This document shows positions 21,060 to 36,642 of a DNA stretch of 57,227 nt, piece after piece (within the stretch, counting starts at the first letter, position 1; every line of letters begins with the position of its first letter). Origin of the DNA: Nitrospinota bacterium. Lineage in GTDB: Bacteria; 2-12-FULL-45-22; JACOWJ01. Location of the stretch: positions 1 through 57,227 of the forward strand of contig JACOWJ010000028.1 of NCBI GenBank assembly GCA_016176845.1, written 5' to 3'. Made by a program: the position numbers and the translations under genes. The notes beneath the pieces were generated by a model. That model made no database searches. It worked only from the letters and a program-made list of their open reading frames with translations, and was not told where the DNA came from.

Positions 21060-21090
21060 GTTATGGTCCCCCCCTCACCCCTACCGGGGG

Positions 21091-21123
21091 GTTAGGGGTT
21101 AGGGATTAGGGGTTAGGGGTTAG
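21091..21123. repeat. Heptad repeat (TTAGGGG)
   Basis: Units TTAGGGG, TTAGGGA, TTAGGGG, TTAGGGG, TTAG between cheR and the CheW gene. Confidence 0.8.
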
Positions 21124-21154
21124 TAAAGAAGAGGTTTCGCCTATCCCATCGAGT

Positions 21155-22660
21155 TTATGAGTTCCCTTTGCCCAGCATCTTTTGGACGTAGAGAGACAAT
21201 TCGCCAACCGTCAGCTCTTCATAAGGTTCCACGGTAAAATGCGGCGGCATTGCCTTGAGAAACTCTAAAGCGGTAGCACGCATCTTCCTTGCTCTCGCGG
21301 AGTCCTCCTCTCTCTCGTACAGGGCGCCGAGATCGAGGTATGCCGGGATGAACGAGGGCGAAAGGTAGAGCGCCTTTTTCAAAAAACTCTTCGCTTGCTC
21401 AGTGTCCCCCTGCTCTTCGGCAACGTGCGCCAACAAGTAGTATGGCTGCACAGCGAAGGGATTGACCGCGAGTGCCTGCTTGCAATAGCGCGCTGCCCTT
21501 TCGCTCTCGCCCAGGTTCGCGCATGCCCGAGCCATCAGATCGAGTGCCTGGAAATTTTGAGGTTCATCCTGCAGCAGAGGTTCCAGCTTCTTCATGGCCC
21601 CACCGTAAGCACCATCTCGGAAAAAGACCTCGGCTTCGGTCAGGAGCGTTTGGGAGTGCACCATTTCAGAACGCGGCTGGTGACGGGTGGATTCTGGGGC
21701 TTCGGTATTCTGCGCTCCGGATCCCGAAACATGAGTCGGAACGGGGCTTGGTAGCGCGACCAAACTTTGTACGACCGGTCTTCTCCGAGCCCTTCCATTC
21801 GTTTCAACGGGTACGTCTCCGCCGCGTTGATAAACAACGGATTCTGGAAAGCATCTTACCCGCAATAAACCTGCACTCTGGGCGTGTATCTCTGTATGTC
21901 CAGTGATCAGATACCCTCCCTCATTCAGCACGTTGACCACCTTTTCTAACACCACAGAGATCACACTAAAGTCAAAGTATATGAAAACGTTCCGACAGAG
22001 AATAAGATCCATATCGTGAATGTCTGTTGTATTGCTGGGATACGAATCGTTAAACAAATTTCCATAGTAAAATGTCACCATCGTTCGAATCCGCTCATCG
22101 ATCTCCCATTCATTTTTTCGTTTGTGAAAGTAGCGTTTCTGGAGATCGGGCTCCATAGTACGGAACGACCATGATCTGTAAATACCTCGTCTGGACTTTC
22201 CAATAGCCTCCTCATTCATATCGATTCCCAGAATAAAAATATTCCAATCATCTCGATATGGAAGCAGCTCATCGATCACCATAGCCAGCGAGTATGGCTC
22301 CTCACCGGTCGAGCATCCTGCGCTCCAGATTCGCAGGGTGCGTTTGCTCTTATTCCGTTCGATCAACTCCGGCAGAATCCAATTTTTCATCAGGTTGAAC
22401 TGCCCCTTGTCCCGAAAGAAATAGCTCTCTCCTGTGGCGAGGTGAGCTGCCAACTCCTTCCATTCGAGGTCGCTCTCGGCGCTATCGGCCTTTAAAAATT
22501 GATAATATTCCTCCGGCTCAGTCAGCTTGAGAAGCTTCATCCGCAACCCTATTGCTTTGCGGAATGTTTTGTTATCTTGGGGTCGAATGTGCAGTCCTGT
22601 CTGTGCTGTGACCAATTCAGCAAGTTGAGAAAAAGACATGTCTGAAATCGTGTTGTTCAT
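21155..22660 (-). CDS. cheR: CheR methyltransferase with C-terminal TPR domain
   Basis: S-adenosylmethionine-dependent chemoreceptor glutamate methyltransferase. The CheR N-domain (about 1-75) is followed by the catalytic domain (about 80-275) with ATGESYFFRDKGQF, the SAM-binding LRIWSAGCSTGEEPYSLAM, LGIDMNEEAI and DLILCRNVFIYFD. After a low-complexity linker come several TPR units (about 340-470: RAARYCKQALAVNPFAVQPY), as in the CheR-TPR class used by Wsp-like systems. ATG 22660 gives 501 residues; a GTG at 22672 adds four. It is the first intact gene of the che operon. Confidence 0.93.
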   Translation of the reverse strand: MNNTISDMSFSQLAELVTAQTGLHIRPQDNKTFRKAIGLRMKLLKLTEPEEYYQFLKADSAESDLEWKELAAHLATGESYFFRDKGQFNLMKNWILPELIERNKSKRTLRIWSAGCSTGEEPYSLAMVIDELLPYRDDWNIFILGIDMNEEAIGKSRRGIYRSWSFRTMEPDLQKRYFHKRKNEWEIDERIRTMVTFYYGNLFNDSYPSNTTDIHDMDLILCRNVFIYFDFSVISVVLEKVVNVLNEGGYLITGHTEIHAQSAGLLRVRCFPESVVYQRGGDVPVETNGRARRRPVVQSLVALPSPVPTHVSGSGAQNTEAPESTRHQPRSEMVHSQTLLTEAEVFFRDGAYGGAMKKLEPLLQDEPQNFQALDLMARACANLGESERAARYCKQALAVNPFAVQPYYLLAHVAEEQGDTEQAKSFLKKALYLSPSFIPAYLDLGALYEREEDSARARKMRATALEFLKAMPPHFTVEPYEELTVGELSLYVQKMLGKGNS

Positions 22661-22674
22661 TGGTATAACCACAA

Positions 22675-23349
22675 TTAGGTTAATATCGAGGAAGCCACTC
22701 CATTTAAGGTCCCCGCAGATGCTGGAGATAACCCTCCAGCATCTGCTCTGAAACTCACAAGGGTGCCATCATCGACCGGCTCCCCTTTTCTATTAAACTC
22801 CATTACCTCACTGATACAGGTTCTGCCGAAGTATCCCATATTTTCACATAAATTACATCCTTTTCCACGGTAAAATTTTATTGGAAGGTTTTTATAATTC
22901 ATTTTAAGTCTACTGATCCATTGATCAGAAGGGATGTAGGACTCTTTACATTTGTTACAAATTAAAGGACACAAACGTTGGGCAATAATACCGATGATTG
23001 AAGAGACTACCAGGTATGGAGGGATACCCATGTTTAGGAGACGAGTCACAGTTGCAGGAGCATTGTTGGTATGGAGAGTACTTAAAACCAGGTGGCCTGT
23101 TTGAGCAGCTAGAATCGCAATTTCGGCAGTATCTCGATCTCTTATTTCTCCTATCATTATCACATCTGGATCCTGGCGTAAAATTGACCTTAATGCATTA
23201 GCAAAAATCAAATTAACCCTCTCATTTATTTGAACCTGGTTTACTCCCTCCAGGTCATATTCTATAGGGTCGTCAATGGTTATTATATTAATCTTACTAG
23301 ATCGGTCTTTCCACGTGAATGTCGTTGGATAAATCGATATATGAAATCC
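22675..23349 (-). pseudogene. gspE/pilB fragment joined to a bacterial Ig-like (Big_1) fragment
   Basis: The frame opens after a TAG at 23350-23352 and reads [20 protein letters not shown], then [33 protein letters not shown] and the metal-binding CPLICNKC...CNLC, all from the C-terminal half of a GspE/PilB secretion ATPase. The Walker A region is missing. After EVMEFN the chain becomes [18 protein letters not shown] then [18 protein letters not shown], which matches a Big_1 immunoglobulin-like repeat, not an ATPase. Both pieces are incomplete, so this is a chimeric remnant. It is AT-richer than the genes on either side. Confidence 0.75.
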
Positions 23350-23830
23350 CTAAAGACCCTAACTGTGAGGCCATTGCTAGTGCTAAACTTTTTTGGGATA
23401 AATTTAAAGATAAATCCTTGAAATTACTCGCCTTGTCCAAATTCATCCACTCAGGAGGCCAGCATTCCCAAGCAATTGTGTTGAATGATTTCTCGTCAAA
23501 TTATGGTTAGTGCTGAGGGATCGAAGCTGAACGAGGTTGATCGGGTGAGGCTACTCGGGTACCTTGAAAGGGCAAGCTCCTATCGGCTCATAATAGTTCC
23601 TCCTAGAAAACAGTTATAAGGCCGAAATTCGGTTCGGAGCAGGCAACCCCCTCTTCTCATTTCTCAAAAGGGCTGCCGACGTGAGAATATGATTTCTTTG
23701 CCGTCGATTTATTCATCGGGTTCCAGGCGAATTTTCTTTAAATTTTTTTTTCACGTGGATCCCCCAAAAAACAAGGGTCCTTCAGGGCCAGCCCCTCCCT
23801 AAAGGACCCTGGACCTTTATTCCGCCTCTA
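23350..23830. other. AT-rich intergenic region with a terminator
   Basis: A short AT-rich plus-strand frame (23319-23510, 63 codons, no family match, no ribosome-binding site) may be a gene fragment. The rest holds no recognisable gene, only the terminator at 23764-23810 serving the cytochrome operon. Confidence 0.5.
23764..23810 (-). terminator. Intrinsic terminator of the cytochrome/bc operon
   Basis: AGGGTCCTT (23774-23782) pairs with AAGGACCCT (23802-23810), extended by AGGG/CCCT. Read on the minus strand the stem is followed by a T-run (complement of 23766-23773). It lies 20-70 nt past the tetraheme stop codon. Confidence 0.85.
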
Positions 23831-24478
23831 TTATTCCTCCTCATCCTCTTCCTCCTTCTCCGTCTTCACCTTCTTCTTGTACTCCTCGGGCGTCGGATGG
23901 GCGATCTTCTTCTTCGCCTGCTCGAAGTCAAACCCGACCTTCTTTCCCCCGGCGACCGTATACTGGTTGGGGTCCCAGGATGGGCTCTCGCTGTTATGAC
24001 AGGTGGTGCAGTTCTTTTCCGTCGGGAGGATCAGGCCGTTCTTCTTGGCCTCCTCCTTGTCGATCATGATCTTCTTCTTGCGGTAGCCACTGCCCGGCCC
24101 GTGACAGGACTCGCACTGGATCCCATCCTCCATCTTGAAGGTCTTAGCCAGCAATTTGGGATCCACCCCATAGGCGGTGACATGGCACTTCAGGCACTTG
24201 GGCTCCTTCTGCGGGTCTCCGCTTACCCCTTTCTTTTGAGCAAACTCCTTCGCCTTAGGAGTCGCCAGGGTCTTGTAAGTCTTGGCATGAGGGCCCTCCT
24301 CCCATTTTTGGAAGGCCTCTCCGGAGCCCTTTTTCCGGTGGCAGTTCTTGCACTTGGAAACCCCCACGTATTTGTACTCCGCCGCGAAGGTCCCGCTGCC
24401 AAAAACCCAAAGCCCCACCAAGAGCAACCCCACTATTCCTGTCCCCAACGACCACATCCATCCCTTGCCCCGTTTCAT
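23831..24478 (-). CDS. Tetraheme cytochrome c (c554-type)
   Basis: A 215-residue periplasmic electron carrier. An N-terminal hydrophobic helix (about residues 8-32, ending GTFAA) is a signal peptide or anchor. Four CXXCH motifs follow: CKNCH, CLKCH, CESCH and CTTCH. The pattern GVSKCKNCH...KWEEGPHAKTYKTL resembles the cytochrome c554 family, and CESCHGPGSGY is typical of such proteins. The C-terminus is a Lys/Glu-rich tail (KKKVKTEKEEEDEEE). It is the last gene of the operon, just before a strong terminator. It could shuttle electrons between the quinol-oxidising complex and the outer-membrane conduit; this is inference. Confidence 0.88.
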   Translation of the reverse strand: MKRGKGWMWSLGTGIVGLLLVGLWVFGSGTFAAEYKYVGVSKCKNCHRKKGSGEAFQKWEEGPHAKTYKTLATPKAKEFAQKKGVSGDPQKEPKCLKCHVTAYGVDPKLLAKTFKMEDGIQCESCHGPGSGYRKKKIMIDKEEAKKNGLILPTEKNCTTCHNSESPSWDPNQYTVAGGKKVGFDFEQAKKKIAHPTPEEYKKKVKTEKEEEDEEE

Positions 24479-24503
24479 CTTTTCCTTTCCTCCTCTTAAA
24501 AGC

Positions 24504-24527
24504 AGGGGTTAGGGGTTAGGGGTTAGT
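24504..24527. repeat. Heptad repeat, left arm (TTAGGGG x3)
   Basis: Three TTAGGGG-type units forming an inverted pair with 24555-24600, between two cytochrome genes. Confidence 0.8.
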
Positions 24528-24554
24528 AGAGAAACGCACTATTTACATCGATCT

Positions 24555-24600
24555 GCTAACCCCTAATCCCTAACCCCTAACCTCTAATCCCTAGTCCCTG
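24555..24600. repeat. Heptad repeat, right arm (CCCCTAA)
   Basis: Units CTAACCC, CTAATCC, CTAACCC, CTAACCT, CTAATCC, CTAGTCC. The tract supplies the stop codon (TAG) of the adjoining pentaheme gene. Confidence 0.8.
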
Positions 24601-25418
24601 TGAACGAGGGTCCTCCGATAGCCGATCGCGATCACCAGAGCCACCAGCAGGAACCCGATGGAAATCATACCGACGAACCTTCGGTGGTTCGCCTCTCGAT
24701 CCAACCGAGATAGATCGTCCCCGATCTTCTCCATCACCGATGTGAGCTGCTGTTCCTTTCGGATTGTCCGGTTCACCGCCATCTCGTGGACCAGCTTCTC
24801 CACCTCTTCCTTGACCCCCCCCAACTCTCTCCGCATCGGGTCTACGCTCATCCCTTTGTTCCAAACCTCGGCCAGCAGGAGGTTGGCCTTCTTAACCTGG
24901 TCGTTAATCCGCATCAGGCCCTGCTTGACCTTTTTGGAATCGGCGAAATCATGGCAGTCGGAACAATCGTCCTCCGTAATGATCCTTTTCAAAGAGGGAG
25001 GCCTGATGTTGTGGACCCCATGGCAGGCCGTACAGGTCGGGGCATCCGTCCCCGCCCTCAGCGCCTCCCCGTGAGGGCCTTGGAGGAAGCTCTCCCTTTC
25101 CGTCCCGTGACACTGGCCGCAAAAGTCCGGGATTTGCTCCTCTTCGGGCTTTCCCAGATAGCCGGCCTTGCTCGATTTAGCGGCCTTCTTCGTATGGGCT
25201 TTGGGATTCCCCCCGTGGCAGCCATCACAGGAGACCTGGTGGAGCGCATGGACGCTCTTCTGCCAGTCCCGGACTGGATCGCGCAGCTTCTTTTCCCTCT
25301 CCTCGAGGTGGCACTCCTGGCAGGAGCCGGTCTCGACCTCCTGGGCCCAAAGCCCTCTGCTCCCTCCTCCACCCAGGATCGCCAGGACCAAAAAAAGACC
25401 CCAGACCCACCTGCTCAA
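24591..25418 (-). CDS. Membrane-anchored pentaheme cytochrome c
   Basis: A 275-residue protein with a signal peptide (VWGLFLVLAILGGGG...LWAQ), five CXXCH motifs (CQECH, CDGCH, CGQCH, CTACH, CSDCH) within residues 33-155, then a helical stretch and a C-terminal membrane helix (FVGMISIGFLLVALVIAIGY, about 246-265). It would sit on the outer face of the inner membrane. The TTG start at 25418 is supported by GGAGG 10 nt upstream. It follows the subunit IV gene by 65 nt, so it is a candidate replacement for the missing cytochrome c1/f of this bc-type complex. Partner assignment is inference. Confidence 0.87.
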   Translation of the reverse strand: MSRWVWGLFLVLAILGGGGSRGLWAQEVETGSCQECHLEEREKKLRDPVRDWQKSVHALHQVSCDGCHGGNPKAHTKKAAKSSKAGYLGKPEEEQIPDFCGQCHGTERESFLQGPHGEALRAGTDAPTCTACHGVHNIRPPSLKRIITEDDCSDCHDFADSKKVKQGLMRINDQVKKANLLLAEVWNKGMSVDPMRRELGGVKEEVEKLVHEMAVNRTIRKEQQLTSVMEKIGDDLSRLDREANHRRFVGMISIGFLLVALVIAIGYRRTLVHRD

Positions 25419-25483
25419 CGCTCTTTATCCTCCATGAAGCCCCCTGCTTTTAGTAGAGAGAGCGGCACACGCATTCTCCCCCA

Positions 25484-25885
25484 TTACTCGGAATAGAACC
25501 CCCATACCGATAGTCCGACAACCGACAGCAGGCCCAAGACCGCCAGGAGCGTGAAGAGCGGCCTCCTGAGGGGGTGTCTCTCGGGGCCGCGGTCGATCAA
25601 GGGAAGAATGAAAAGGAAGACCATTGCCAGGATCTGCAGCGAGACCCCAAGGATTTTGTTGGGGACCACCTTTAGGAGCTGGTAGGAGGCCAAAAAGTAC
25701 CACTCCGGCTTGATGTGTGCCGGGGTCACGAAGGGATCCGCTCGCTCGAAGGCCTCCGGCGGGAAGAAGAGCAAGGGAAGAAAGAAGATGATCCCAAGGA
25801 ACATGATCAAATAAACCAGAATGACAACCACATCCTCGATGATGAAATGGGGATAGAAGGGAATCCCTTTCTCTCTTTTGGCCAT
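25484..25885 (-). CDS. Cytochrome b C-terminal / subunit IV-like protein
   Basis: The 133-residue second half of a split cytochrome b, as in b6f complexes. Three membrane helices are visible: VVVILVYLIMFLGIIFFLPL, ILGVSLQILAMVFLFILPL and LFTLLAVLGLLSVVGLSVW. The quinol-oxidation site motif is KPEWYFLASYQLLKVVPNKI, containing the PEWY residues. ATG 25885 is chosen because AAAGGAGG lies 5 nt upstream; an ATG a few codons earlier would overlap that site. The cytochrome b6-like gene lies 17 nt upstream, and the Rieske gene precedes that. Confidence 0.92.
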   Translation of the reverse strand: MAKREKGIPFYPHFIIEDVVVILVYLIMFLGIIFFLPLLFFPPEAFERADPFVTPAHIKPEWYFLASYQLLKVVPNKILGVSLQILAMVFLFILPLIDRGPERHPLRRPLFTLLAVLGLLSVVGLSVWGFYSE

Positions 25886-25902
25886 TATGCCTCCTTTATC
25901 AC

Positions 25903-26556
25903 TCATCTCCCGGGCGGGTCCGAGATCCCGGTCCTTCGAATCAGGAAGAGGTGCAGGGCAACCAGGAGCACCATCGTCGCCGGGATCAAGGCCACGTGCA
26001 TGGCGTAAAACCGGCTCAGGGTAGGCCCCCCCACGATCTCCTGGCCCCGCAAGAATCGGTTCAGCTCGGGGCCGATCCAGGGGACGGTCCCCGCCGCATT
26101 GGTGGCCACGGTCGTTCCCCAATAGGAGAGCTGGCTCCAGGGCAAAAGATAGCCGGATAAGGCAATCCCAAGGGTCAACAGCATCAGGAGGAAGCCGCTC
26201 ATCCAGTGAAGCTCTCGGGGCTTCTTATAGGAGCCCATGAAAAGGACGCTTACCATATGGAGCGTCACCGCCGCGATCATCATGGTGGCGCCCACAGCGT
26301 GAACCAGCCGGATAAGCCAGCCGTAAGGGACCTGGGTCATGATTCGCTGGATGCTGTCATAGGCGAAATCGGTGTGCGGGATGTAATAGACCAACAGGAG
26401 GATCCCCGTCAAGACCTGGACGATGAAAATGAACAGGGCGAGCCCCCCCAGGGAATACCAGAGGTTAATCTCTTCGGGCACATAATATTCGGTCAGTTGA
26501 CCCTTGATCAGCTCCTTAAGATGAATCCGTTCGTCGATCCAATCCATCAGCGACAT
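25903..26556 (-). CDS. Cytochrome b6-like protein
   Basis: The 217-residue membrane core of a quinol:cytochrome oxidoreductase. Four helices carry the two b-heme ligand pairs: His-x13-His in LVHAVGATMMIAAVTLHMVS and His-x14-His in MHVALIPATMVLLVALHLF; the x14 spacing is the b6-type arrangement. The quinone-site region reads SYWGTTVATNAAGTVPWIG. In plant and cyanobacterial b6 a Cys35 binds an extra heme covalently; the matching place here is Ser35 (NLWYSLGG), so that bond is absent. It starts 4 nt after the Rieske stop and precedes the subunit IV gene. Confidence 0.94.
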   Translation of the reverse strand: MSLMDWIDERIHLKELIKGQLTEYYVPEEINLWYSLGGLALFIFIVQVLTGILLLVYYIPHTDFAYDSIQRIMTQVPYGWLIRLVHAVGATMMIAAVTLHMVSVLFMGSYKKPRELHWMSGFLLMLLTLGIALSGYLLPWSQLSYWGTTVATNAAGTVPWIGPELNRFLRGQEIVGGPTLSRFYAMHVALIPATMVLLVALHLFLIRRTGISDPPGR

Positions 26557-26560
26557 CGCA

Positions 26561-27028
26561 TCATGCCCCCAACATAACCTTTCCTCCTGCCACGGTCACC
26601 GGATGGACCTCCAGCGGCGCAGGAGCTGGTCCTCCCAGCACCCTCCCATCCAAAGCAAAGCGAGCCGCATGACATGGGCAGAAGAGCATCTTTCGCTCCT
26701 CCTGCCATTTAACGATGCATCCCAAATGAGTGCAGACTGCCGATATGGCCACCACGCCTTCCGTCGCGTTGATGACCAGCGTGGGCAAGCCCCGATACAG
26801 GATCGTCTTGGCTGTCCCCATGGGGATCTCCCCCAGGTCCACCTCCACCTTCCGGGCCGCCTTGTCGGCCTCCAAGGGCCGCAGGTACTGAACCACGGGG
26901 TAGAGGGCCCCCCCCAGGGCCGTTGCCCCCAGCACCGCCAGGCATTGGCCCAGAAATTTCCTCCGGCTCTCTAATAAGATCTCCTGCTCACTCCGACCTT
27001 CCCCCATGAGAATCCTTGGGTTTTTCAT
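26561..27028 (-). CDS. Rieske [2Fe-2S] protein
   Basis: High-potential iron-sulfur subunit of the bc-type complex. The 155 residues begin with a cytoplasmic stretch, then a twin-arginine motif (SRRKFL near residue 21) and one membrane helix (CLAVLGATALGGALYPVV), so it is probably Tat-inserted with an uncleaved anchor. The cluster-binding motifs are CTHLGC near 97 and CPCHAARF near 116. The start is uncertain: ATG 27028 has no strong ribosome-binding site and Met8 (27007) is an alternative. It is directly coupled to the cytochrome b6-like gene. Confidence 0.94.
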   Translation of the reverse strand: MKNPRILMGEGRSEQEILLESRRKFLGQCLAVLGATALGGALYPVVQYLRPLEADKAARKVEVDLGEIPMGTAKTILYRGLPTLVINATEGVVAISAVCTHLGCIVKWQEERKMLFCPCHAARFALDGRVLGGPAPAPLEVHPVTVAGGKVMLGA

Positions 27029-27058
27029 CGTCTTCTTCGATTCACCTTGTTCTTCGAT

Positions 27059-28285
27059 TTACCTTGCGTTAAAGACCCGCTCATCTCGAGCCAGGTCCAC
27101 GACCGTATCGACCTGGTCGATCACTCGAGGTTTGTATTCATAAACGACTTGAGCGTTGATCACCACCTCTGTCCCGCGAGGAACGAAGAAGAAAAACTCC
27201 TCCCGTCGCGTCTCCTTGGGCTCGATCCGGTTATCGGAAGAGAGCCTGGCAGCATTCAGGAATGCATCGACGTCCCGGGTGATCTCTTCGCCCCGCTCAT
27301 TCAGTAGGACCTTACGATAGGAACGCTCCGCCACGAAGCTCTTTCCCTGGGCAGTGGTGGCCTTTAACGTCAATACCAACCGCTTGGTGGGCAGGCCGGT
27401 GGGGATCCGATGGCCCGCCCCATGGTTGGTGATCTCCACCACGACCCGAACCCGGCCCCCCAACCGCTCAACGCTGGCGATCCCGACCTTCAGCATCTTC
27501 TTCAGCTGTGGCACCGAGCTGCCGCCGGCGATATCGTGGAGGTTGATCTCCTTCCTGGCGATGAGTCCCCCTTCCGTAAGATAGCCTTCCTCCTGTCGGC
27601 TGATGGGCATGTGGCACCGTTGACAGGGGGTCCCCTGCTTGCGGTAGAAACCGGCCGACCACTCGGAATAGGTGCCCAGCACCACCACCCCTTTCGGGTT
27701 TACATATTCATGGCAGCCCGCACAGATGAGGGAGTCCTCGTAAAGTTTGGAAGCGGCCACCTCGTGGTTTGGGGCCTTCTCCTGTCCGTGTGTACCCCAC
27801 TTCACCAGGCCGGTCTCGATCTTCAGCTCGTGCAGCCCTTGTTTGGCCAACTTAACGTCTTTGAGGGTGTGGCAGAAGTCGCAAGTGATCCCCTCCGACG
27901 TGATCTCCTGCCTGATCTCGAAATCTTTGGTGAACTGGGTCGTGGGAGCATGGCAGGCCAGGCAAAAGGTCTTCGCCTTCCCTTGGGTCATCCTGTAAGC
28001 TTCCAGATAGGCGGTGTCGAAGATCGGGTCCACCAACGAGCGGGCATGGAGGGTATCCTTCCAGCTCTGGTAGATCAGCGTGTGGCAGCGGCCGCAGACC
28101 GCAGCCTTGCTGTAACCCTTTTTCTCCAGCTTCGGGAAGGATGGCTTCCCTTTCCCTTGGCCGAAAACGGTTGCGGCGAGCAGCAGCAAGATGATCCACC
28201 CCCCTCCGATCGCCGCCTCTCTGAGGCCGCTCCGCTTCATCTGCCTGCCCGTTCCTCTGAGCCTCCTCCATCCTCTGCCGATCAT
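27059..28285 (-). CDS. Pentaheme cytochrome c with C-terminal beta domain
   Basis: A 408-residue periplasmic cytochrome. An N-terminal hydrophobic segment (GGGWIILLLLAATVFGQG, about 28-45) acts as signal or anchor. Five CXXCH motifs (CGRCH, CLACH, CDFCH, CAGCH, CQRCH) lie within residues 64-220, in a c554-like arrangement (HTLIYQSWKDTLHARSL). The last 170 residues lack hemes and look like a beta-rich domain (VRVVVEITNHGAGHRIPTGL). ATG 28285 has GAGGAGG 4-5 nt upstream. It sits between the MtrB-like porin and Rieske genes, so it may join the quinol-oxidising complex to the outer-membrane conduit. Confidence 0.87.
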   Translation of the reverse strand: MIGRGWRRLRGTGRQMKRSGLREAAIGGGWIILLLLAATVFGQGKGKPSFPKLEKKGYSKAAVCGRCHTLIYQSWKDTLHARSLVDPIFDTAYLEAYRMTQGKAKTFCLACHAPTTQFTKDFEIRQEITSEGITCDFCHTLKDVKLAKQGLHELKIETGLVKWGTHGQEKAPNHEVAASKLYEDSLICAGCHEYVNPKGVVVLGTYSEWSAGFYRKQGTPCQRCHMPISRQEEGYLTEGGLIARKEINLHDIAGGSSVPQLKKMLKVGIASVERLGGRVRVVVEITNHGAGHRIPTGLPTKRLVLTLKATTAQGKSFVAERSYRKVLLNERGEEITRDVDAFLNAARLSSDNRIEPKETRREEFFFFVPRGTEVVINAQVVYEYKPRVIDQVDTVVDLARDERVFNAR

Positions 28286-28300
28286 CTGCCTCCTCTCATT

Positions 28301-30376
28301 TCAATCCAGATTAACCCTAAGGAGCACAGTCCAAAGGTTCACCTCATATTCGTTGTCCTGCCGGAAGAAAGGAGGCCGCTTCTCGGAGAAGAATTGCTCG
28401 ACCAGCCGGCTCCCCTTCTCGTCCAACCTCATCCGTCGGTATTGGAGATCCAAACCCATCCCCTTTCCCCCAACCTTGAACTTGTAAAGCAACCCCAGGG
28501 AAAAATCGCCGGTATCCAAGGGGAAGCTCCCCTCGGCGTTCGCCAGCCGGTAGTTGAAAGAGGTCGTCAGGAAGGAGGTCAGCTCGTAGGAGAGTCCGGT
28601 CAAAAAGATGTTGTTGTCCTCCGAGAAAACGCTGCTCCCTCCCCGCAGCACGCCATCGGTAAAGAGCTCGGTCTCCGTGTCGAAATCCAGGTCCTGTCGC
28701 ATGTAGGTAGCATTCCACATCAACCCCCGAATCGGCTGGTACCAGAGGGAAACCGCATAATTCTTCTGGTCGATGTCGGAGGAATGCTGATTGAACACCC
28801 CTTGTTCCGTGAGGACGGGGGAGCCAATGTTCGGGGTGCCCCCGGTATTCTTCCGCTGGATGAGGTGATAATCGAGGTTGAGTCCCAGGTTTCTGAAGGG
28901 TTGGTAGCGGACCAGGATCTTGGTCCGGTGTTCATCCGAACTGCTGATCTCGGTAAAAGGATTATCGACCGCGAGGTTCTCATACTCTCCGACGATGCTC
29001 AGCCCGCGGAAGGGGCGATAATCGAACCCGAAGATGAAGTTGTTGTCCCGGGTCGTCATGTCGCGCAAGACCGCGCGGCGCTGCTCGGGGTTATCCCGGA
29101 CCCGGCGGGCCTGACGGCTCTGCCAGAGGTAGCCGAAGCGCAGGGCCAGGTTCTCCAAGGGGAGGTATTCGAAGAAGCTCCGGAGGGTATGGCTCTTGAT
29201 ATCGTCGTCCACTTGGGTGACGACGTTTCCCTCCTCCTCCAGGCCCAGAAAGTCGATGACCCCATCGTTGCCCCGGGGAATGGTGGAGCCGGATGATTCG
29301 CTGTCGTAAAGTCGGTAGGTGTTGTGGAAAAAGAGGTTCTCCAAGATCTTGACCGAGAAGCCCAGATCGAAGAGGTGGATGTCCCGCTCCCCATCCCCGC
29401 GGCCGAACAGGGTTCCCGCCACGGGATCGCCGTTGAAAGCGGTGGCCGCGATTGAGCTGACGAAGGAGTGGTTCTGTCGGGTCTTGCTGAAGATATAGGC
29501 CGCATTCATCTCCAGCCAATCCAGGGGGGTGGCGTGCAGGCCGAGACGGGTCAGCGGGTTCTTGGTGCTCTCGCTCTGCCTCCAATCGAATGCGCTCAAG
29601 GCGGTCAGGAAGCGAGGGTTGCCCCCCAGCTCCCCCGGGGAGGTTGGCTGGGTGCGAGGACGAAAGAAATTGATCTCGTTGTTCCAAAGGCGCAGGCTCT
29701 GCTCGAAGGAGAGGTCCACGAAGCCAAGGCGATAGCTCAGGCCCATCCCGTAGTCGTTGGTGGCCTTGTCCACCGGCTCGAACAGGGAGAAGTGGGCCCG
29801 GGATAGGTGGCGAGAGGTGATGGAATCGCCGATCTGTTCCTGTCGGCGATAGAAGAGGTTCAGCCTGGGCCAGCCCTCGGGATTGATCACCAGATCGACA
29901 TTCCCGAACTTCCGATCCCACTCGAAGGCATGGGGATCGCCCACGAAGAAGGGGGCCCCGAGGCCTTCCTGTACGCTGCTGAAGGCCCGGGTCTCATCCC
30001 GGTTGGTGTAGCGATATTCGCTCTTGCGGGCCGACATCTTGAGGTCGTAGAGGCCCCTCTTTCCCAGGCGGACGGACCCAAAGGGGTAAGGGTCCCCGCC
30101 CAGGCTGCTTCCTTCCAACTTGAAGTAATCGAAGGGGCGTCCAGCCCCTTCTTCTGCCTCCCCTCTGAGGGAGAAATCGAAGAGCCGCAGGCCGCTGAAG
30201 AGATTGTAATCTTCCCGGTATTTCCGCTGGTTCTTGTCCACATCGACGACCCGGGGGCCCACGCCCAGGGTCCCCTGCAGGTCGTATCCCCACAGCTCGG
30301 TCTTGGCCCAAGCCGATCCACTCCATCCCATCACTATCCCCAGGATCCCCGCCATGATCGCGATGATCTTCCTCAT
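28301..30376 (-). CDS. MtrB/PioB-like outer-membrane beta-barrel porin
   Basis: A 691-residue exported protein. The signal peptide is MRKIIAIMAGILGIVMGWSG with cleavage after SAWA. The rest is a run of alternating-polarity strands ending in aromatic residues (for example NLALRFGYLWQSRQ and LTSFLTTSFNYRLANAEG), closing with VNLWTVLLRVNLD, a typical barrel end. Size and position directly after a decaheme gene match the decaheme-associated MtrB/PioB group, whose barrels sheathe a multiheme cytochrome across the outer membrane. ATG 30376 is chosen because GAGGAG lies 9 nt upstream; an earlier in-frame start at 30409 lies in heptad DNA. The first genes of the unit are thus cytochrome plus porin. 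Confidence 0.82.
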   Translation of the reverse strand: MRKIIAIMAGILGIVMGWSGSAWAKTELWGYDLQGTLGVGPRVVDVDKNQRKYREDYNLFSGLRLFDFSLRGEAEEGAGRPFDYFKLEGSSLGGDPYPFGSVRLGKRGLYDLKMSARKSEYRYTNRDETRAFSSVQEGLGAPFFVGDPHAFEWDRKFGNVDLVINPEGWPRLNLFYRRQEQIGDSITSRHLSRAHFSLFEPVDKATNDYGMGLSYRLGFVDLSFEQSLRLWNNEINFFRPRTQPTSPGELGGNPRFLTALSAFDWRQSESTKNPLTRLGLHATPLDWLEMNAAYIFSKTRQNHSFVSSIAATAFNGDPVAGTLFGRGDGERDIHLFDLGFSVKILENLFFHNTYRLYDSESSGSTIPRGNDGVIDFLGLEEEGNVVTQVDDDIKSHTLRSFFEYLPLENLALRFGYLWQSRQARRVRDNPEQRRAVLRDMTTRDNNFIFGFDYRPFRGLSIVGEYENLAVDNPFTEISSSDEHRTKILVRYQPFRNLGLNLDYHLIQRKNTGGTPNIGSPVLTEQGVFNQHSSDIDQKNYAVSLWYQPIRGLMWNATYMRQDLDFDTETELFTDGVLRGGSSVFSEDNNIFLTGLSYELTSFLTTSFNYRLANAEGSFPLDTGDFSLGLLYKFKVGGKGMGLDLQYRRMRLDEKGSRLVEQFFSEKRPPFFRQDNEYEVNLWTVLLRVNLD

Positions 30377-30395
30377 CGACCGGATCTCCTCAATT

Positions 30396-30430
30396 AGCTC
30401 ATAGCTCATAGCTCATGGCTCATAGCTCAC
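30396..30430. repeat. Heptad repeat (AGCTCAT x4)
   Basis: Units AGCTCAT, AGCTCAT, AGCTCAT, GGCTCAT, AGCTCAC just upstream of the porin gene. Confidence 0.8.
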
Positions 30431-30435
30431 ACCGG

Positions 30436-30465
30436 AAAAAGGAAATTCCTATACCATTCAATTGG
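30436..30465. repeat. AGGAAATTCCT-type element
   Basis: AAAAAGGAAATTCCTATACC followed by ATTCAATTGG, adjoining the AGCTCAT heptads. Confidence 0.7.
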
Positions 30466-30509
30466 CTTATCCCTCTCGCTTCCCGCTAGTGAACCGATTG
30501 CCCCACTCT

Positions 30510-31430
30510 CTACTCGAAAAAGGCATGGTTGACGTTCGACCCATGGATGTTCACATGACAGAAGGTACAATTCCGAAAGTTCCCGGCGACTGCCCGCTGG
30601 TTATGAAAGGCCGGGGTATTGGGATGACACTGGAGGCAGAGGCTCGCCACCTCCTGATAGGCCAGGAGGTGGCGGTTGTTGGAGCCATGGGGCTGATGGC
30701 AGGTGCTGCACCCTTCCACATAGACCGACAGGTGCTCGAAGACCCAAGGCCCTCGCAATTCGCTGTGGCAATTGAAGCAGACCTCGTCTCGGGCCTGCCG
30801 CAACTGCCTCCGATTGGCCGCGCTGTGGGAGGTGTGACAGTCCGGACAGTTGACGACCCCCTCGGGGACCTTGTGCCGTTCGGGCAAGGCGAATTCGGCC
30901 TGGATCCGGACGTGGCAGGAGTAACAAAGCTCGGGAGCCGGCCTCTTGAGGGAGGCCTCTCGCACGCCCCCCTTGTGGATCTGATGGCACTCGTCGCAGG
31001 GAACCTGGCTTACGGCGTGTTGGCTTCTCCGAAAATCCTCCCGCTCCCGGTCCCGACGGTGGCATTGTAAACAGATGCCCATCCGGCCTTTGGGGTGCTC
31101 CTCCTTGAAGCGGATGATCTGCTTGGGGGTCTTGCTCGTTTCGGCCTCATTGGAGTGGGCGCTGCCGGGGCCATGGCAGCCCTCGCACCCCTTGCCTGCT
31201 ATCCCCCATTTCTCGAATTCTACCTTGCCATGGAGCGTCCGGGGGAAGGCATCCGCCACTTTCTCATGGCAGTCAGTGCACTCCTCACCCCCGATGTAGG
31301 TGGCCCCGGGAATAACGGGAAGGGGAACAAATTTCTGATAAGGCTGACAGGAATAACAAAAGCAAAGGAAAGCGATCATGAGTCCCGCCGATAGAAACGT
31401 TCGGATTGGGGTGTTTCCTCTCGATGACAT
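30510..31430 (-). CDS. Decaheme cytochrome c, MtrA/DmsE-like
   Basis: A 306-residue exported protein with ten CXXCH motifs (CTDCH, CEGCH, CLQCH, CDECH, CYSCH, CPDCH, CFNCH, CSTCH, CLQCH, CTFCH) between about residues 50 and 290. Heme number, length and the following MtrB-like gene match the MtrA/DmsE family that fills the porin and conducts electrons through the outer membrane. The signal region (FLSAGLMIAFLCFCYSC) could end in a lipidated Cys, though the lipobox is weak. ATG 31430 is favoured because AGGAG lies 8 nt upstream; a start at 31514 would add 28 residues of no export character. It is first in its transcription unit. Confidence 0.88.
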   Translation of the reverse strand: MSSRGNTPIRTFLSAGLMIAFLCFCYSCQPYQKFVPLPVIPGATYIGGEECTDCHEKVADAFPRTLHGKVEFEKWGIAGKGCEGCHGPGSAHSNEAETSKTPKQIIRFKEEHPKGRMGICLQCHRRDREREDFRRSQHAVSQVPCDECHQIHKGGVREASLKRPAPELCYSCHVRIQAEFALPERHKVPEGVVNCPDCHTSHSAANRRQLRQARDEVCFNCHSELRGPWVFEHLSVYVEGCSTCHQPHGSNNRHLLAYQEVASLCLQCHPNTPAFHNQRAVAGNFRNCTFCHVNIHGSNVNHAFFE

Positions 31431-31778
31431 CCCGTTTATCTCCTGACTTGAGGATGTGGGTAATATCAAATCTATATAAGACAAGAATTGCCCATACTCT
31501 AACTTTAGAAGCATAAAATTGTCAAGGACAACTGAAGAAAATTCAAGGATAAAAATTTGCCAGATTGATTGTTAAACCGCTGCACAGCATAAAACAATCT
31601 GTGGAAAATCGCGATTCTCTCAATAAAATCATTAGGATAACTTCAATTCTTTAAGGTTTTAGATAAACAGTTAGATAAACAGATCGACAACAAAGACGAG
31701 AAAAAAAGTTCAGCGGGTCAATCAATGCGATATCTGACTGACCCGCTGAAGGTTCTCGGCACCATAGGCCTTCGCGTG
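31431..31778. other. AT-rich intergenic region, probable promoter of the decaheme unit
   Basis: AT-rich DNA upstream of the decaheme gene, bounded by a strong terminator (31700-31750) for the nonaheme gene. Transcription of the decaheme-porin-bc unit probably starts here. No confident -35/-10 pair was identified by eye. Confidence 0.5.
31700..31750 (-). terminator. Intrinsic terminator after the first nonaheme gene
   Basis: TTCAGCGGGTCA (31709-31720) and TGACCCGCTGAA (31739-31750) are perfect 12-bp complements. On the minus strand the stem is followed by a run of seven T (complement of 31701-31707). Confidence 0.88.
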
Positions 31779-34247
31779 CTATTTCAGGCGAAGCACCCGC
31801 CGGCTGGACTTATAAGCCTCCCGCTTGGAGACGATGCTGGCCCCCGGGACCTCGTTCCCGGTGAGCTTTTTGTAAGACCTCTGGAGCAAGGTAACGGCAT
31901 AGGCCGTGTTATGAATCCCGGCGCTTATATCGCGCTCGACGAAGCCCACATTCCAGCGGGCGGCGGCCTGCGCCAGCGTCGAGCTCCGGGTGATGGTGTT
32001 GCTAAAGCCGGGCGCGGATCTGACCAACGCGATCAGGCCGGCGACCTCATCCTGGACGCCCTCCACCCGACCGTCCCCATCATAATCCCCCCGGGCCCTC
32101 CGGTTGAGCCTATCCAGGCCGGGATGGCACTGCTGGCAGGCGGCCACGTTCTCCACCCGCTCCCCGGCTTCCTCGCCATGCCGGACGCCGACCAATTCCG
32201 CGGGAGTGCGCACGTTGAAGGTGTGGCCGCCCACCCGGTTGTGGCCCGGCTCGCCTTCGGCCGGGGTCTTGAACATGTGGCAGGTCACGCAGGTGTCCGG
32301 GTTCTCGAAGTGGAAGGAGCGGGCATACTTCTCATCGGTGAACTCGTAGCCCCCCGTCCCGGCCAGCATCTCGGTGTTGGTGGGCATCTGGGAGCTGGGG
32401 GGGATGAAGGTATTGCTGATGGCGATCTCCGTCCCGGGGATCTTCGTCTCCCCGGCGAGATAGGCATCAATATACCCATTGACGCCCTTGGGATTCTTGA
32501 TAGAAGTCAAGGCCAGGTTGTGGCAGGTCATGCAGACGGTCCCCTTCCCTCCCTCCACCAGGGAGCCATCGGGGAGCTCGACCATATCCTCAGGGCCCTT
32601 TCTCCGGAGCTGATGCTCCTTCCCCGCGCTATGGGGATCATGACAGGTGGCGCATCCGATCCGATTGGGGCTGGGGATCGCGATCGGGTCGCCGCCCTCG
32701 ATCACTGCCCGTAGCCATCCCTCGGAGCTATGGCAGCGCTGGCAAACATCGACGCCCGGGAGGGGCGAGGTCTGCTGGGCGAGGATGTGGACATCATAGC
32801 CATGCCGGTGGTTTCTCCATTGCTGGAAGATAGCCCCCTCGGGCGCGGCATCGTGGCACTGGGCGCAGACCCGGGGGTCCAGGGTATGGGAGATCTTCTC
32901 CGGGTCGCCCACGTGCTGGCTGCCCGGGCCGTGGCAGTTCTCGCACTGGACGTTGGCCCGCTGGGCCAGGGCGGGAAATCGATCCAGCAGGCGGTTGAAG
33001 AGACCCGGGGCCGGCTTCTTGAAGCGGAATCCCCTGGCCAGGTCGTCCCACCCGCCGTTCCTGGCGCTCCGGCTCTTATCGAACCCCAGCGTGTGGCAGG
33101 GCAGGCAGCTCTCCTGATAGGCGGGGCCCAGGAGCCCGTTGAGCCCCCTCTGGAGGATAGTGGCATGCCCCGTCCCCTGCCAATCCTCGAGGATGGCCGG
33201 CAACGTTCCCCCGTCCGACGTTGTGACGGGCTGATCATGGCAGGCGCCGCAATGCCCCTCGGAGAATTTGGCCGTCCTCCCGCCGATGGTCCCCACGCCG
33301 ACCCATTTGGCCGCGATGAGGGTCAGGGGCGGGGGAAGCTTTTCGGGGGTGTCGGTGATCAGGCCGTCCCCTCCCCTTCTGCCGTTGTTGTCCACGTCCA
33401 GGTAGTCCTCGGGGATATCTCCCACGGCGGTGATCTCAAAGCTGATCTGGTACTCTCCCTCCACATCGGGGATGAGGAAGGGGGTCTGGGAGGTCGCGTC
33501 CTGCAGGACGACCTGGGAGCCAGGGGGCCTCGAGGTCAGGGTCCACTTCCAACCGGTGATGCGATCGTTGGTCCCCTGCCGGTGCGTGCCGGGCTGTGCG
33601 CTGCCGGCCACCCAGTCGGTCCCGGTAGCCTCCGAGGTCGCGCCGCTCATAAAGGTCCGGACCCCGACCGGCACCACATTTTGTCCCGTAGAGACCTCCA
33701 CGCCCTCCTTCGGATCGATAAAGACCGTCACCCGATCGGTGGCGCGGCCTCCTCCATCATCCGTGACGGTCAGGTCGAACTCCAGCACCTTGTGCTGTCG
33801 CCCGAAGGGGATCACCCGCCAGATCTTCAGGTCGGGTCCCCGCCGGGCCCGATTTGCCACTCCCGGTGTCCCCGGGATTCCCGGCCCTTCCACGTACCAG
33901 TAGTTCTCCAGATAGCCGCTGGGAGGCGGCGTTATGAAGCTGGGCGTGGCGGTATTCGCCCCTGTAAGGGTCACCGGCACCCCGGAGACCTGTTGCCATT
34001 GAAAGTGCAGCGCGCCCCCGCCCTTGGAAGGGCGGCTCCGGCTCCCATCCAGCTTGACCGGTGCGTTAAAGCCCACGTTCTCCAGGTCCTTCCCCGCATT
34101 CGCGACGATGCTGCCGGGCGCCCTGCGGCCACCCTGGGCCATTGCCCACTCTCCCCCCAAGAGAGCGGCGACGGCCAGCCCCACAGCCACCCACAGGGTG
34201 CCCCGCCAGGAAATCGGACTTTCCTTCCACGGTCCTCTCACAGTCAT
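31779..34247 (-). CDS. Nonaheme cytochrome c with N-terminal PKD-like region (paralog 1)
   Basis: An 822-residue exported cytochrome. A signal peptide (VAVGLAVAALLGGEWAMAQ) precedes a PKD/Ig-like region (NVGFNAPVKLDGSRSR, HFQWQQVSGVPVTLTG) and a further beta-rich part. Nine CXXCH motifs follow between about residues 333 and 706: CGACH, CLPCH, CENCH, CAQCH, CQRCH, CATCH, CMTCH, CVTCH, CQQCH. The C-terminus has GIHNTAYAVTLLQRSYKKLTG, shared almost word for word with the paralog at 34510. PKD domains are common on secreted proteins, so a surface or extracellular role beside the MtrAB-like conduit is likely but inferred. AAAGGAGAG precedes ATG 34247. It ends at a strong terminator. Confidence 0.87.
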   Translation of the reverse strand: MTVRGPWKESPISWRGTLWVAVGLAVAALLGGEWAMAQGGRRAPGSIVANAGKDLENVGFNAPVKLDGSRSRPSKGGGALHFQWQQVSGVPVTLTGANTATPSFITPPPSGYLENYWYVEGPGIPGTPGVANRARRGPDLKIWRVIPFGRQHKVLEFDLTVTDDGGGRATDRVTVFIDPKEGVEVSTGQNVVPVGVRTFMSGATSEATGTDWVAGSAQPGTHRQGTNDRITGWKWTLTSRPPGSQVVLQDATSQTPFLIPDVEGEYQISFEITAVGDIPEDYLDVDNNGRRGGDGLITDTPEKLPPPLTLIAAKWVGVGTIGGRTAKFSEGHCGACHDQPVTTSDGGTLPAILEDWQGTGHATILQRGLNGLLGPAYQESCLPCHTLGFDKSRSARNGGWDDLARGFRFKKPAPGLFNRLLDRFPALAQRANVQCENCHGPGSQHVGDPEKISHTLDPRVCAQCHDAAPEGAIFQQWRNHRHGYDVHILAQQTSPLPGVDVCQRCHSSEGWLRAVIEGGDPIAIPSPNRIGCATCHDPHSAGKEHQLRRKGPEDMVELPDGSLVEGGKGTVCMTCHNLALTSIKNPKGVNGYIDAYLAGETKIPGTEIAISNTFIPPSSQMPTNTEMLAGTGGYEFTDEKYARSFHFENPDTCVTCHMFKTPAEGEPGHNRVGGHTFNVRTPAELVGVRHGEEAGERVENVAACQQCHPGLDRLNRRARGDYDGDGRVEGVQDEVAGLIALVRSAPGFSNTITRSSTLAQAAARWNVGFVERDISAGIHNTAYAVTLLQRSYKKLTGNEVPGASIVSKREAYKSSRRVLRLK

Positions 34248-34283
34248 CTCTCCTTTCTCTTTGCCACTCCTCTGCAGTAAGTT

Positions 34284-34308
34284 GGCTCATAGCTCATAGC
34301 TCATAGCA
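34284..34308. repeat. Heptad repeat (AGCTCAT x3)
   Basis: Units GGCTCAT, AGCTCAT, AGCTCAT, AGC upstream of the nonaheme gene; same unit as 30396-30430. Confidence 0.75.
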
Positions 34309-34356
34309 GCCGGAGCTTCGAGCTATAGATGTTGCCGTTTGCTTTTGGAATTCTTA

Positions 34357-34509: not shown

Positions 34510-36642
34510 TTACCTCAGCGCTGCCCCTGGAATGTCCTGCCCGGTCAGGTTTCTGTAAGATCGTTGGAGCAGCTGGAGCGCGTAAGCCGTGTTGTGGATT
34601 CCGTGGCTGCCATCGTTCCTCACGAAGTGGTGGTTGTAGGCCGCCTTGTACTGGGCGTCGGTGGGGGTTGCCTCCTGGCCGGCGCTATTCTTGAAGATGA
34701 ACCTCCCCTCTTCCTCTACAAAGGAACCAGAGAGGCCGTCCCCGATCCCCCCCGCCAGGCTATCCGCGATCGCCCCGGCCAGGATATCCAGCAAGTGGTC
34801 CACCTCCGTCTGGACGCCCTCCCGGACCCCATCGCCATCGTAGTCGGCCGCAGCGGGCCGGTTGAAGCCGGCGAGTCCACGATGGCACTGCCGGCAGATG
34901 GCCACGTTCTGGACTTCCTCGGACTCATCCTCCCCCTCATCCTCCCCCTCCTCCGAGCCATCGTCCGGCTCCGGGGTGTGCATGTTGAAGGAGTGACCGC
35001 CCACTTGATGATGGCCCGGCTCGCCCTCGGCCGGCCCCGGGGCCATGTGGCAGGTCACGCACTTCTCGCTGCGCGACTGTGCGCTCCTGAGCTCCGGCAA
35101 GACGAAGGCCTCGCTGCCGTGGAAGGAGCTGTCATAGCGCTGGTTACCCACCTCGAAGGCCCCCGTGCCCTCCAACATCTCCCCCTGGGGGCCGAAGTGG
35201 GGGGCCAGGCGACCGCTGGCCGCCAGGGTGGCGGGGTTCCGGCGGGAGTTGTGGCAGGCATAGCAAATGGCGGCGACATCCGCCTCCACCCGGGTCCCGT
35301 CAGGCAACGCGATCTTCCCCGCGATCCTGAGCTGATGCTCGTTCCTGGCGGAATGGGGGTCGTGGCAGGCCGCGCAGGTCTGGGGCTGGGGATCGTCCAG
35401 ACGGGTCAGGAGTTTACCCTTCACCCGCCGGACAAAGCCCTGGGCCGTGTGGCAGGGGATGCACTCGCCCCGGAAGGCCGGGTTCTCCACCAGAACCGAA
35501 TGTTTGGAGTTTTCCCATTCCACCCCACGATTGAGGTCGCGATTGAGGTAAGGGGCCCCTGCGTGGCATTGCTGGCAGACCCCGGACCGGAGGCTGACGG
35601 AGATCGCCTCCTTCCGTCCGCCATGCTCGCTCCCCGGGCCGTGGCAGCTCTCGCACTGGATGTTGGCCAGGTTCTGGAGCCTGGGGGGCGCCTTCCTGAA
35701 GTTCCCGGGCAACAGCCTCTCCGGGAACCGCCAGCCCAGCAAAAGCTGCACGTCATCGAACCCGCCATTGTCCGCCTTCTTTTCGTGGCCTATGGTATGG
35801 CAGCGGATGCATTCCTCGTCGTAAGGAAGGGACAGCCTTCCATCCACCCCGCGGGCGAAGAAGCCGGCATGGCCCGTCTTCAACCAGGGGGTGACCAGAT
35901 CCGGCCGGCGTTTTCCATTGTGGCAGCGCCGGCAGTCGAAGCGCTCGCCCGACCAGAGGCTGGCAACCAGCCGGATGACGGACCCCGAGTTGATCTCCTC
36001 GATCACATACACCCCCGGGACATCCGGGATGAAGACCGGGGTTCGGATCTCGCTCGCTTCGCACTCCGCAGGATCATCGGACTGCGAGGGGCACGTCAGC
36101 TCACCTCCTCCAGAATCGAAGGGTTTTTCGGAGACCGTCCAATTATAGCCTTCCTGCTCCTTGCCGGTCAGGAAGACCTCCGTCCCGACCCCCACGGTGC
36201 TCAAACCACCGGTTGCTGTGCTGGTCATGGATACGATCACCTGATCGATGGCGGTCTCCCCCTGCGAGTCCGTCACGGTCAGCTCGAGCACCACCTCCTT
36301 TTCGTCGGGCGAGAGGGCGACGATCGTGAAGGCCTTCCGCTCGGCGGGCGTCAGGACCTGCTCCAGGGTGGGGGTCGTGAATCTCGGGTTGGGGAGATTG
36401 GGGTCGGATAGGATCATGCTGGGGCCATGGAGCTGCCTCCAATGGAAGGTCAGATCGCCCTCGCCTCCGCTGCCTCCCCCCGCTAACTGGACCAGTTGGT
36501 CGAATCCCACGTCCTCCTGGTTGGGGCCGGCGTTCGCCTTCAAGGGGGCCTGGGTGTGGCCTCGGGCTGTCAAGGTCAGGAGCAAGGCCAGGGTCAAAAG
36601 GAATAGCAGCGTTGCCATTTTAGGCTTGTGGTTCCCATCCAA
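34510..36642 (-). CDS. Nonaheme cytochrome c with N-terminal PKD-like region (paralog 2)
   Basis: A 710-residue exported cytochrome with the same layout as the gene at 31779. It has a signal peptide (ATLLFLLTLALLLTLTARG), a PKD-like part (EDVGFDQLVQLAGG, LTFHWRQLHGPSMILSD), then nine CXXCH motifs between about residues 237 and 584 (CRRCH, CIRCH, CESCH, CQQCH, CIPCH, CAACH, CYACH, CVTCH, CRQCH). An acidic insert (DDGSEEGEDEGEDESEE) precedes the last heme. The C-terminus reads GIHNTAYALQLLQRSYRNLTG. A TTG start at 36642 is supported by GGAGG 7 nt upstream; ATG 36618 lacks a site. Probably a surface electron carrier; partner unknown. Confidence 0.87.
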   Translation of the reverse strand: MDGNHKPKMATLLFLLTLALLLTLTARGHTQAPLKANAGPNQEDVGFDQLVQLAGGGSGGEGDLTFHWRQLHGPSMILSDPNLPNPRFTTPTLEQVLTPAERKAFTIVALSPDEKEVVLELTVTDSQGETAIDQVIVSMTSTATGGLSTVGVGTEVFLTGKEQEGYNWTVSEKPFDSGGGELTCPSQSDDPAECEASEIRTPVFIPDVPGVYVIEEINSGSVIRLVASLWSGERFDCRRCHNGKRRPDLVTPWLKTGHAGFFARGVDGRLSLPYDEECIRCHTIGHEKKADNGGFDDVQLLLGWRFPERLLPGNFRKAPPRLQNLANIQCESCHGPGSEHGGRKEAISVSLRSGVCQQCHAGAPYLNRDLNRGVEWENSKHSVLVENPAFRGECIPCHTAQGFVRRVKGKLLTRLDDPQPQTCAACHDPHSARNEHQLRIAGKIALPDGTRVEADVAAICYACHNSRRNPATLAASGRLAPHFGPQGEMLEGTGAFEVGNQRYDSSFHGSEAFVLPELRSAQSRSEKCVTCHMAPGPAEGEPGHHQVGGHSFNMHTPEPDDGSEEGEDEGEDESEEVQNVAICRQCHRGLAGFNRPAAADYDGDGVREGVQTEVDHLLDILAGAIADSLAGGIGDGLSGSFVEEEGRFIFKNSAGQEATPTDAQYKAAYNHHFVRNDGSHGIHNTAYALQLLQRSYRNLTGQDIPGAALR

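Follow-up and report, generated by a model that had tools for sequence, protein, structure and literature searches.

How an outer-membrane electron conduit is supplied from the quinone pool, and whether energy can be conserved on the way, is the question raised by a gene run in a Nitrospinota bacterium (GenBank assembly GCA_016176845.1, contig JACOWJ010000028.1). The window, meaning the whole stretch of 57,227 nt that was analysed, is an entire contig (C33) of the 1.53-Mb source genome (G000), which is 68% complete. Eight intact, co-directional genes on its minus strand, extending from the mtrA start at 31430 to the tetraheme end at 23831, encode in order a DmsE/MtrA decaheme cytochrome, an MtrB porin, an ExtKL-like pentaheme cytochrome, a Rieske protein, cytochrome b6, subunit IV, an anchored pentaheme cytochrome and a tetraheme cytochrome, with 10, 0, 5, 0, 0, 0, 5 and 4 CXXCH motifs, respectively. 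An earlier note on this DNA had assigned these eight identities and a single reading direction, and both were borne out by family scans and intact minus-strand open reading frames (ORFs). With a probability of roughly 0.6, we read the locus as a dedicated quinol-to-surface respiratory chain, in which an electrogenic menaquinol oxidase supplies a conduit across the outer membrane. In its favour are intact heme b ligands and PEWY motif, MtrB as the best fold match of the porin, the lack of a detected terminator in the stretch from mtrB to the Rieske/b genes, and an enrichment of similar linkages in other genomes.

The first two genes combine an MtrA/DmsE decaheme with an MtrB-family porin of about 26 strands, as in MtrAB conduits. 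The decaheme scored 229 bits against the DmsE family TIGR03508, above the cut-off of 192, and its closest solved protein is MtrA of the Mtr complex (6R2Q chain A; 117 bits, E 8e-33; the match list labels the chain otherwise). The porin exceeded the cut-off of 23 for PF11854 (MtrB_PioB) with a score of 37.9, and a profile tied it to porins adjacent to MtrA. Its AlphaFold2 model, built from an alignment of 34 porins, is a 26-strand barrel with a mean pLDDT of 82. A Foldseek search with this model returned MtrB of the Mtr complex first (6r2q_B; E 6e-17, TM score 0.65-0.69), and the remaining barrels in the list had TM scores of ≤0.48. The earlier note had made its proposal depend on a porin able to house the decaheme; at the level of fold the porin, modelled alone, passes, with its 26 strands and MtrB as best match. 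The decaheme and the barrel together make a predicted conduit. No OmcA/MtrC-family gene was found beside mtrAB, either among the nine scanned proteins or in the window gene map; two 9-heme proteins of PKD type lie upstream in its place. In an order-level relative (G001, contig C64, locus L056), whose porin is 42-45% identical to that of the window, MtrA-MtrB is accompanied at the contig end by a putatively MtrC-like gene of 681 aa with 9 CXXCH motifs, which adjoins mtrB.

The genes that follow encode a Rieske/cytochrome b complex, as indicated by ligands for two bis-His b hemes (H86/100/187/202), PEWY, and the Rieske motifs CTHLGC and CPCH. Features of cytochrome b6f itself are missing: position 35 is occupied by Ser, and none of the eight genes gave a cytochrome f match. 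Judged by sequence, the core is b6f-like in its subunit split only. Its b6 protein is closest among solved proteins to cytochrome b6 of 6RQF (E 8e-55) and scored 213 against ExtP (NF040969), under the cut-off of 290. The pentaheme encoded next to mtrB likewise scored below the ExtKL cut-off (NF040886; 88 bits, cut-off 250); its model (pLDDT 83) best matches the penta-heme c552 fold of 5ZE8 (TM score 0.68), and alignment to 9WT8 places a Leu at the Sec position of the solved selenoprotein MccSep. Homologs of this pentaheme reach 45% identity. The anchored pentaheme is a candidate replacement for cytochrome f/c1, and proteins of equal position and type occur in loci L054, L057, L058, L060 and L068, with a longer 9-heme form elsewhere. 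Homologs of the tetraheme lie beside MtrAB in L159 (138 bits) and beside ExtKL in L039 (156 bits). The order pentaheme-Rieske-b6-IV-pentaheme recurs in Nitrospirota (L057, L058, L068 and L060, in the last of which the b6 frame is hidden by ORF choice), and related bc modules are found in Nitrospinota, in a Dadabacteria metagenome-assembled genome and in Acidobacteriota.

The conduit and the bc genes lie close together (Table 1). From mtrA to the tetraheme gene, the intergenic gaps measure 133, 15, 30, 4, 17, 65 and 112 nt. Most starts have a Shine-Dalgarno-like sequence in front of them. The earlier note had most gaps under 70 nt and the largest at about 130 nt, which is correct to within 3 nt for the largest but passes over the second gap of more than 100 nt. 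A strong terminator lies close to where the upstream one had been placed (31700), and the stem and T run expected near 23764 are also present. A far more stable hairpin had gone unreported; it falls in the 112 nt that separate the anchored pentaheme gene from the tetraheme gene. It does not lie between MtrAB and Rieske/b, where a terminator had been named as evidence that would separate the two halves; examination of sequence and folding found none between mtrB and the Rieske/b genes. The eight genes may share a single transcript.

We rejected the hairpin ahead of the tetraheme gene as proof of termination, as similar heptad arrays turn up in numerous gaps across this genome. The window has 23 such tandem arrays with 7-nt units, where mononucleotide shuffles give 0.3, and a 20-kb part of contig C34 has 9. 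Given these counts, the hairpin may represent a dispersed element and not a terminator. The units are of the types TTAGGGR, AAAACTT, TGCATTTT-like, CTATGAG and CCTGTCC, and the arrays are mainly intergenic, often in inverted pairs able to form long hairpins. Examples lie at 5158-5227, 21088-21122, 24503-24597 and 45788-45857 of the window and at 4327-4402, 10286-10349 and 18774-18849 of L055 (G000:C34). The window contains no Rfam match.

Table 1. Positions, strand and supporting evidence of features in and around the eight-gene run.
Feature	Position	Strand	Evidence
MtrA/DmsE-type decaheme cytochrome c; 10 CXXCH, ribosome-binding site AGGAG, signal peptide, possible non-canonical lipobox (CYSC)	30510..31430	-	TIGR03508; PDB match
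MtrB-type outer-membrane porin; 691 aa, cysteine-free, 26 predicted beta strands	28301..30376	-	PF11854; AlphaFold2; Foldseek; profile
ExtKL-like pentaheme cytochrome c; C-terminal beta-sandwich	27059..28285	-	NF040886; fold model; alignment
Rieske [2Fe-2S] protein; twin-arginine N-terminus, CTHLGC and CPCHAARF	26561..27028	-	PF00355 (44); TIGR01416; motif table
Cytochrome b6-like; His86/100/187/202 present, Ser at Cys35 (heme c_n) position	25903..26556	-	PF00033 (189 bits); residues
Subunit IV-like protein; PEWY quinol-site motif	25484..25885	-	PF00032 (78 bits)
Anchored pentaheme cytochrome c; signal peptide, C-terminal membrane helix	24591..25418	-	CXXCH count; transmembrane helix
Tetraheme cytochrome c (c554 family)	23831..24478	-	PF13435 (71 bits)
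Intrinsic terminator between upstream 9-heme gene and mtrA	31709..31750	-	17-pair stem then T7; -33.1 kcal/mol, z -6.8
Sigma-70-like promoter site 5′ of mtrA, TTGACA-18-TAGAGT	31496..31525	-	10/12 match to consensus; consensus match only
End terminator-like hairpin (near 23764)	23745..23830	-	Long stem then T run; z -1.3 (fold); sequence
Very stable hairpin of two opposed heptad (TTAGGGR-type) arrays, ends GCUUUU; possible terminator/attenuator	24495..24592	-	-54.3 kcal/mol, z -7.6
9-heme cytochrome, PKD/Ig-like N-terminus; candidate outward-facing partner, separate unit	31779..34247	-	PF22352, PF22113
Second 9-heme cytochrome; candidate outward-facing partner	34510..36642	-	gene map

The pairing of MtrAB with Rieske/b genes recurs in L138, L139, L144, L148, L172, L098, L133 and L102. 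We counted Rieske/cytochrome b genes within 10 kb at 40 loci around the best DmsE-family matches, found in 33 of 386 genomes; besides the source genome, the phylum Nitrospinota was represented in the sample by one further genome. Five of the 40 MtrA loci carried such genes versus 0.28 expected (P ~6e-6), an expectation that derives from the cytochrome b count per genome. The test treats cytochrome b genes as randomly placed, and two of the genomes counted share a genus. With one same-genus locus removed, the probability of at least 4 loci is 1.4e-4, and chance co-location was rejected on the basis of this enrichment. In L138 and L139, which belong to one genus, and in L144 the order is MtrA-MtrB-(monoheme)-Rieske-b-9-heme, on one strand and with short gaps (the Rieske frame of L138 is masked by a longer cytochrome b ORF). 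MtrAB and Rieske/b are divergent in L148, and Rieske/b lies nearby in L172. Three extra linked loci are acidobacterial: L098 has MtrCAB-tetraheme-Rieske-b-9-heme-ExtKL on one strand, L133 consists of facing units, and the third is L102. As a separate observation, large membrane multihemes (13 to 19 CXXCH, 3-4 helices) follow the Mtr-bc clusters in L144 (16421-20000), L138 (16541-18718) and L139 (16733-18943), and these may be further electron carriers.

In the cytochrome b tree, the window sequence groups with L070, L076, L046 and L049 (support 100/98), apart from the clade that holds the other linked sequences (100/99). The MtrAB-linkage label requires six changes on this tree, at least three of them forced by well-supported branches, and it is weakly clustered, with shuffled labels doing as well in 53 of 500 trials. 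In this tree, MtrAB-linked sequences occupy two or more cytochrome b lineages. A single origin is not favoured; gains and losses are indistinguishable.

The Rieske and cytochrome b sequences offer hints as to the potential at which such a complex would operate. In the window, CPCHAARF has lost both the Ser and the Tyr of CPCHGSxY. The Ser is absent from 35 of the 36 Rieske proteins of the sampled loci (window included); the sole exception, L085, groups with the other bc type. Since both residues are lost here, and the Ser is kept in a second bc complex of the source genome (C34), the sequence suggests that the window Rieske protein is tuned to low-potential multiheme acceptors. In yeast, loss of Ser or Tyr lowers the Rieske potential by about 130 or 65 mV, respectively (PMC12954380). 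The four His ligands are kept in all full-length cytochrome b sequences. Cys35, the heme c_n position of b6f, is present in the Nitrospirota/Nitrospinota modules, replaced by Ser in the window, and Tyr or Leu in every other MtrAB-linked sequence. Relatedness may account for part of this pattern, because unlinked sequences in the same clades also lack Cys35. The second bc complex of the source genome (L055, 6694-11786) comprises a Rieske protein with CPCHGS, a b6 that has Cys where heme c_n would attach, a protein resembling subunit IV and an 8-heme protein of 913 aa whose long, charged N-terminal region is probably helical. The set is reminiscent of the anammox Kustd1480-1485 complex.

A broader proposal is tentative and falls somewhat short of even odds: that a low-potential Rieske/cytochrome b complex wired genetically, and perhaps physically, to MtrAB defines a recurring and distinct class of extracellular respiration, in which extracellular electron transfer (EET) drives a Q cycle. 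On this view the linkage arose on more than one occasion in uncultured phyla, and all the MtrAB-linked cytochrome b sequences examined lack the heme c_n cysteine.

In the scheme that we prefer for the window, the Rieske/b6/subunit IV core would oxidise menaquinol at a PEWY-type site and bifurcate the electrons. One electron would return through the two b hemes in a proton-motive Q cycle, and the other would pass from a probably low-potential Rieske centre to the anchored pentaheme, acting in place of cytochrome f/c1. From there it would cross the periplasm, with the ExtKL-like pentaheme as carrier and possibly the tetraheme as another, and reach the MtrA decaheme. MtrA would then pass the electron across the MtrB barrel to cytochromes at the surface, for which the two upstream 9-hemes are candidates. 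We infer the protein contacts and carrier order, a single transcript, Q-cycle activity, the Rieske potential, the use of menaquinone and the outward direction. A precedent for the energetics is the menaquinol-driven Qcr complex, which can render periplasmic anaerobic respiration electrogenic (PMC6195509).

Flow could instead be inward: Fe(II), a mineral or a partner cell would donate electrons that enter through MtrB/MtrA, and a bc complex running in reverse would reduce quinone. MtrAB-type conduits serve Fe(III) reduction and Fe(II) oxidation alike (PMC6295460; PMC10654088), and nothing in the sequence fixes the direction. Nonetheless, a reversed bc complex needs proton-motive force generated with a different, high-potential acceptor. 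A search of the 68%-complete genome detected no COX1, which we count for the outward reading, and the Rieske motif suggests a low potential; we regard inward flow as unlikely. Less probable still is that the halves work independently, the ExtKL-bc module serving a periplasmic acceptor, as in the selenite/tellurite proposal for Geobacter, and MtrAB another quinol dehydrogenase. The bc module does occur without MtrAB in many genomes, and a G. sulfurreducens ExtI deletion did not significantly alter the reduction of Fe(III) citrate (PMC5877670). ExtKL-like genes also adjoin ACIII/Qrc-like sets, as in G001, and for this reason the pentaheme seems to accept electrons from quinol oxidases in general, the ACIII/Qrc-like sets being recognised by sizes, heme counts and helices only. 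Against independence stand a linkage that recurs far more often than chance predicts, and in two or more cytochrome b lineages, and the co-direction and short gaps in the window, L138, L139 and L144. A DmsEF-type role, with a DMSO-like molybdenum reductase outside the cell receiving the electrons of decaheme and porin in place of minerals or partners, is very improbable: the decaheme passes the DmsE cut-off, but TIGR03508 covers MtrA-like proteins too, the gene map, used without a profile search for DmsA/B, has no DmsA/B-like gene beside the cluster, and 9-heme cytochromes lie upstream instead.

Several points weigh against a dedicated quinol-to-surface chain. The case is built from genes, motifs, a predicted porin fold and a linkage repeated in unrelated genomes. 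The exact eight-gene order, for which the earlier note had proposed a search, was not found around the best matches in the 386 genomes or in 79 loci from GTDB genome contigs. Judging from its fragmented contigs, G001 lacks the MtrAB-Rieske/b linkage, and its ExtKL adjoins the ACIII/Qrc-like set, not Rieske/b. The hairpin at 24495..24592 could end or weaken the transcript ahead of the tetraheme gene, and the contig comes from a draft genome in which mis-assembly is possible. Finally, an anammox Rieske protein without the Tyr still has a potential of +335 mV (PMC12954380), which makes a potential read from the motif uncertain.

Part of the locus is already known as a type. The segment from the ExtKL-like to the anchored pentaheme corresponds to the Geobacter bc complex (GSU2937-2930, extKLMNOPQ). 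In the cluster GSU2937-2930/extHIJKLMNOPQS (Butler 2010, PMC2825233; Jahan 2018, PMC5877670), an ExtKL-type pentaheme, the Rieske protein ExtO, the b-type ExtP, the small membrane protein ExtQ, multihemes and a porin gene also share one cluster, and the ExtKL-ExtO-ExtP-ExtQ-type adjacency is found in the window. The window proteins fall below the ExtKL and ExtP equivalog cut-offs, however, and MtrA/MtrB take the place of the ExtI porin (about 45 kDa, no significant MtrB similarity reported) and of the 12- and 10-heme ExtM/ExtN. Linkage of a bc core to multihemes and a porin is thus not wholly new. The coupling of the bc module to MtrAB looks undescribed so far: a search of the open-access literature, preprints excluded, turned up no description of MtrAB linked with Rieske/b genes.

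The earlier note had also held that MtrAB is usually paired with a CymA-type enzyme. CymA is indeed known in this role, but CbcL/MtrH/MtoC occur beside mtrAB too, and a survey of EET quinol enzymes nowhere mentions a Rieske protein (PMC6295460). The Mtr/Mto conduits thus resemble the window in having mtrAB beside a presumed quinol enzyme, but theirs are NapC/NirT-type proteins or HydC/FdnI-like b/c fusions without Rieske (Zhong and Shi 2018, PMC6295460), whereas the window has a Rieske/b6/IV bc complex. The anammox b6f-like complexes (Kuste4569-4574 and Kustd1480-1485; PMC12954380) share b6, subunit IV, Rieske and a multiheme c replacing cytochrome f; they differ in a high-potential Rieske with the Ser kept, NAD(P) oxidoreductase subunits and no outer-membrane conduit. 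In Campylobacter, a bc complex makes menaquinol-driven respiration through Nap/Tor electrogenic, but its acceptors are periplasmic and no outer-membrane conduit is involved (PMC6195509).

The Geobacter bc cluster was named as a possible proton-pumping site in 2010. CymA-type quinol enzymes are considered non-conserving. Having both halves in one gene unit, and in several lineages, provides concrete organisms and genes for testing a surface-coupled Q cycle, and a Rieske protein without Ser/Tyr together with a cytochrome b without Cys35 gives a sequence rule for finding more. If the proposal is true, some microbes may conserve energy directly from respiration onto extracellular acceptors.

Upstream of mtrA, the two 9-heme genes (31779-36642) are, on sequence resemblance, weak candidates for surface partners, as multiheme proteins match one another easily. 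Genes resembling the first flank MtrAB in L163, L164 and L170, and genes resembling the second do so in L159 and L151. Further afield, ORF translations indicate a chemosensory-looking cluster (CheR-, CheA- and CheB-like) directly downstream at 13112-22672. A PilB-like ATPase fragment occupies 22675-23211, and 41598-43928 holds two PilT-like genes, likewise read from translations. A plus-strand tetraheme gene (37291-38073) lies beside a gene whose protein begins like an ADP-forming acyl-CoA synthetase (38162-40306).

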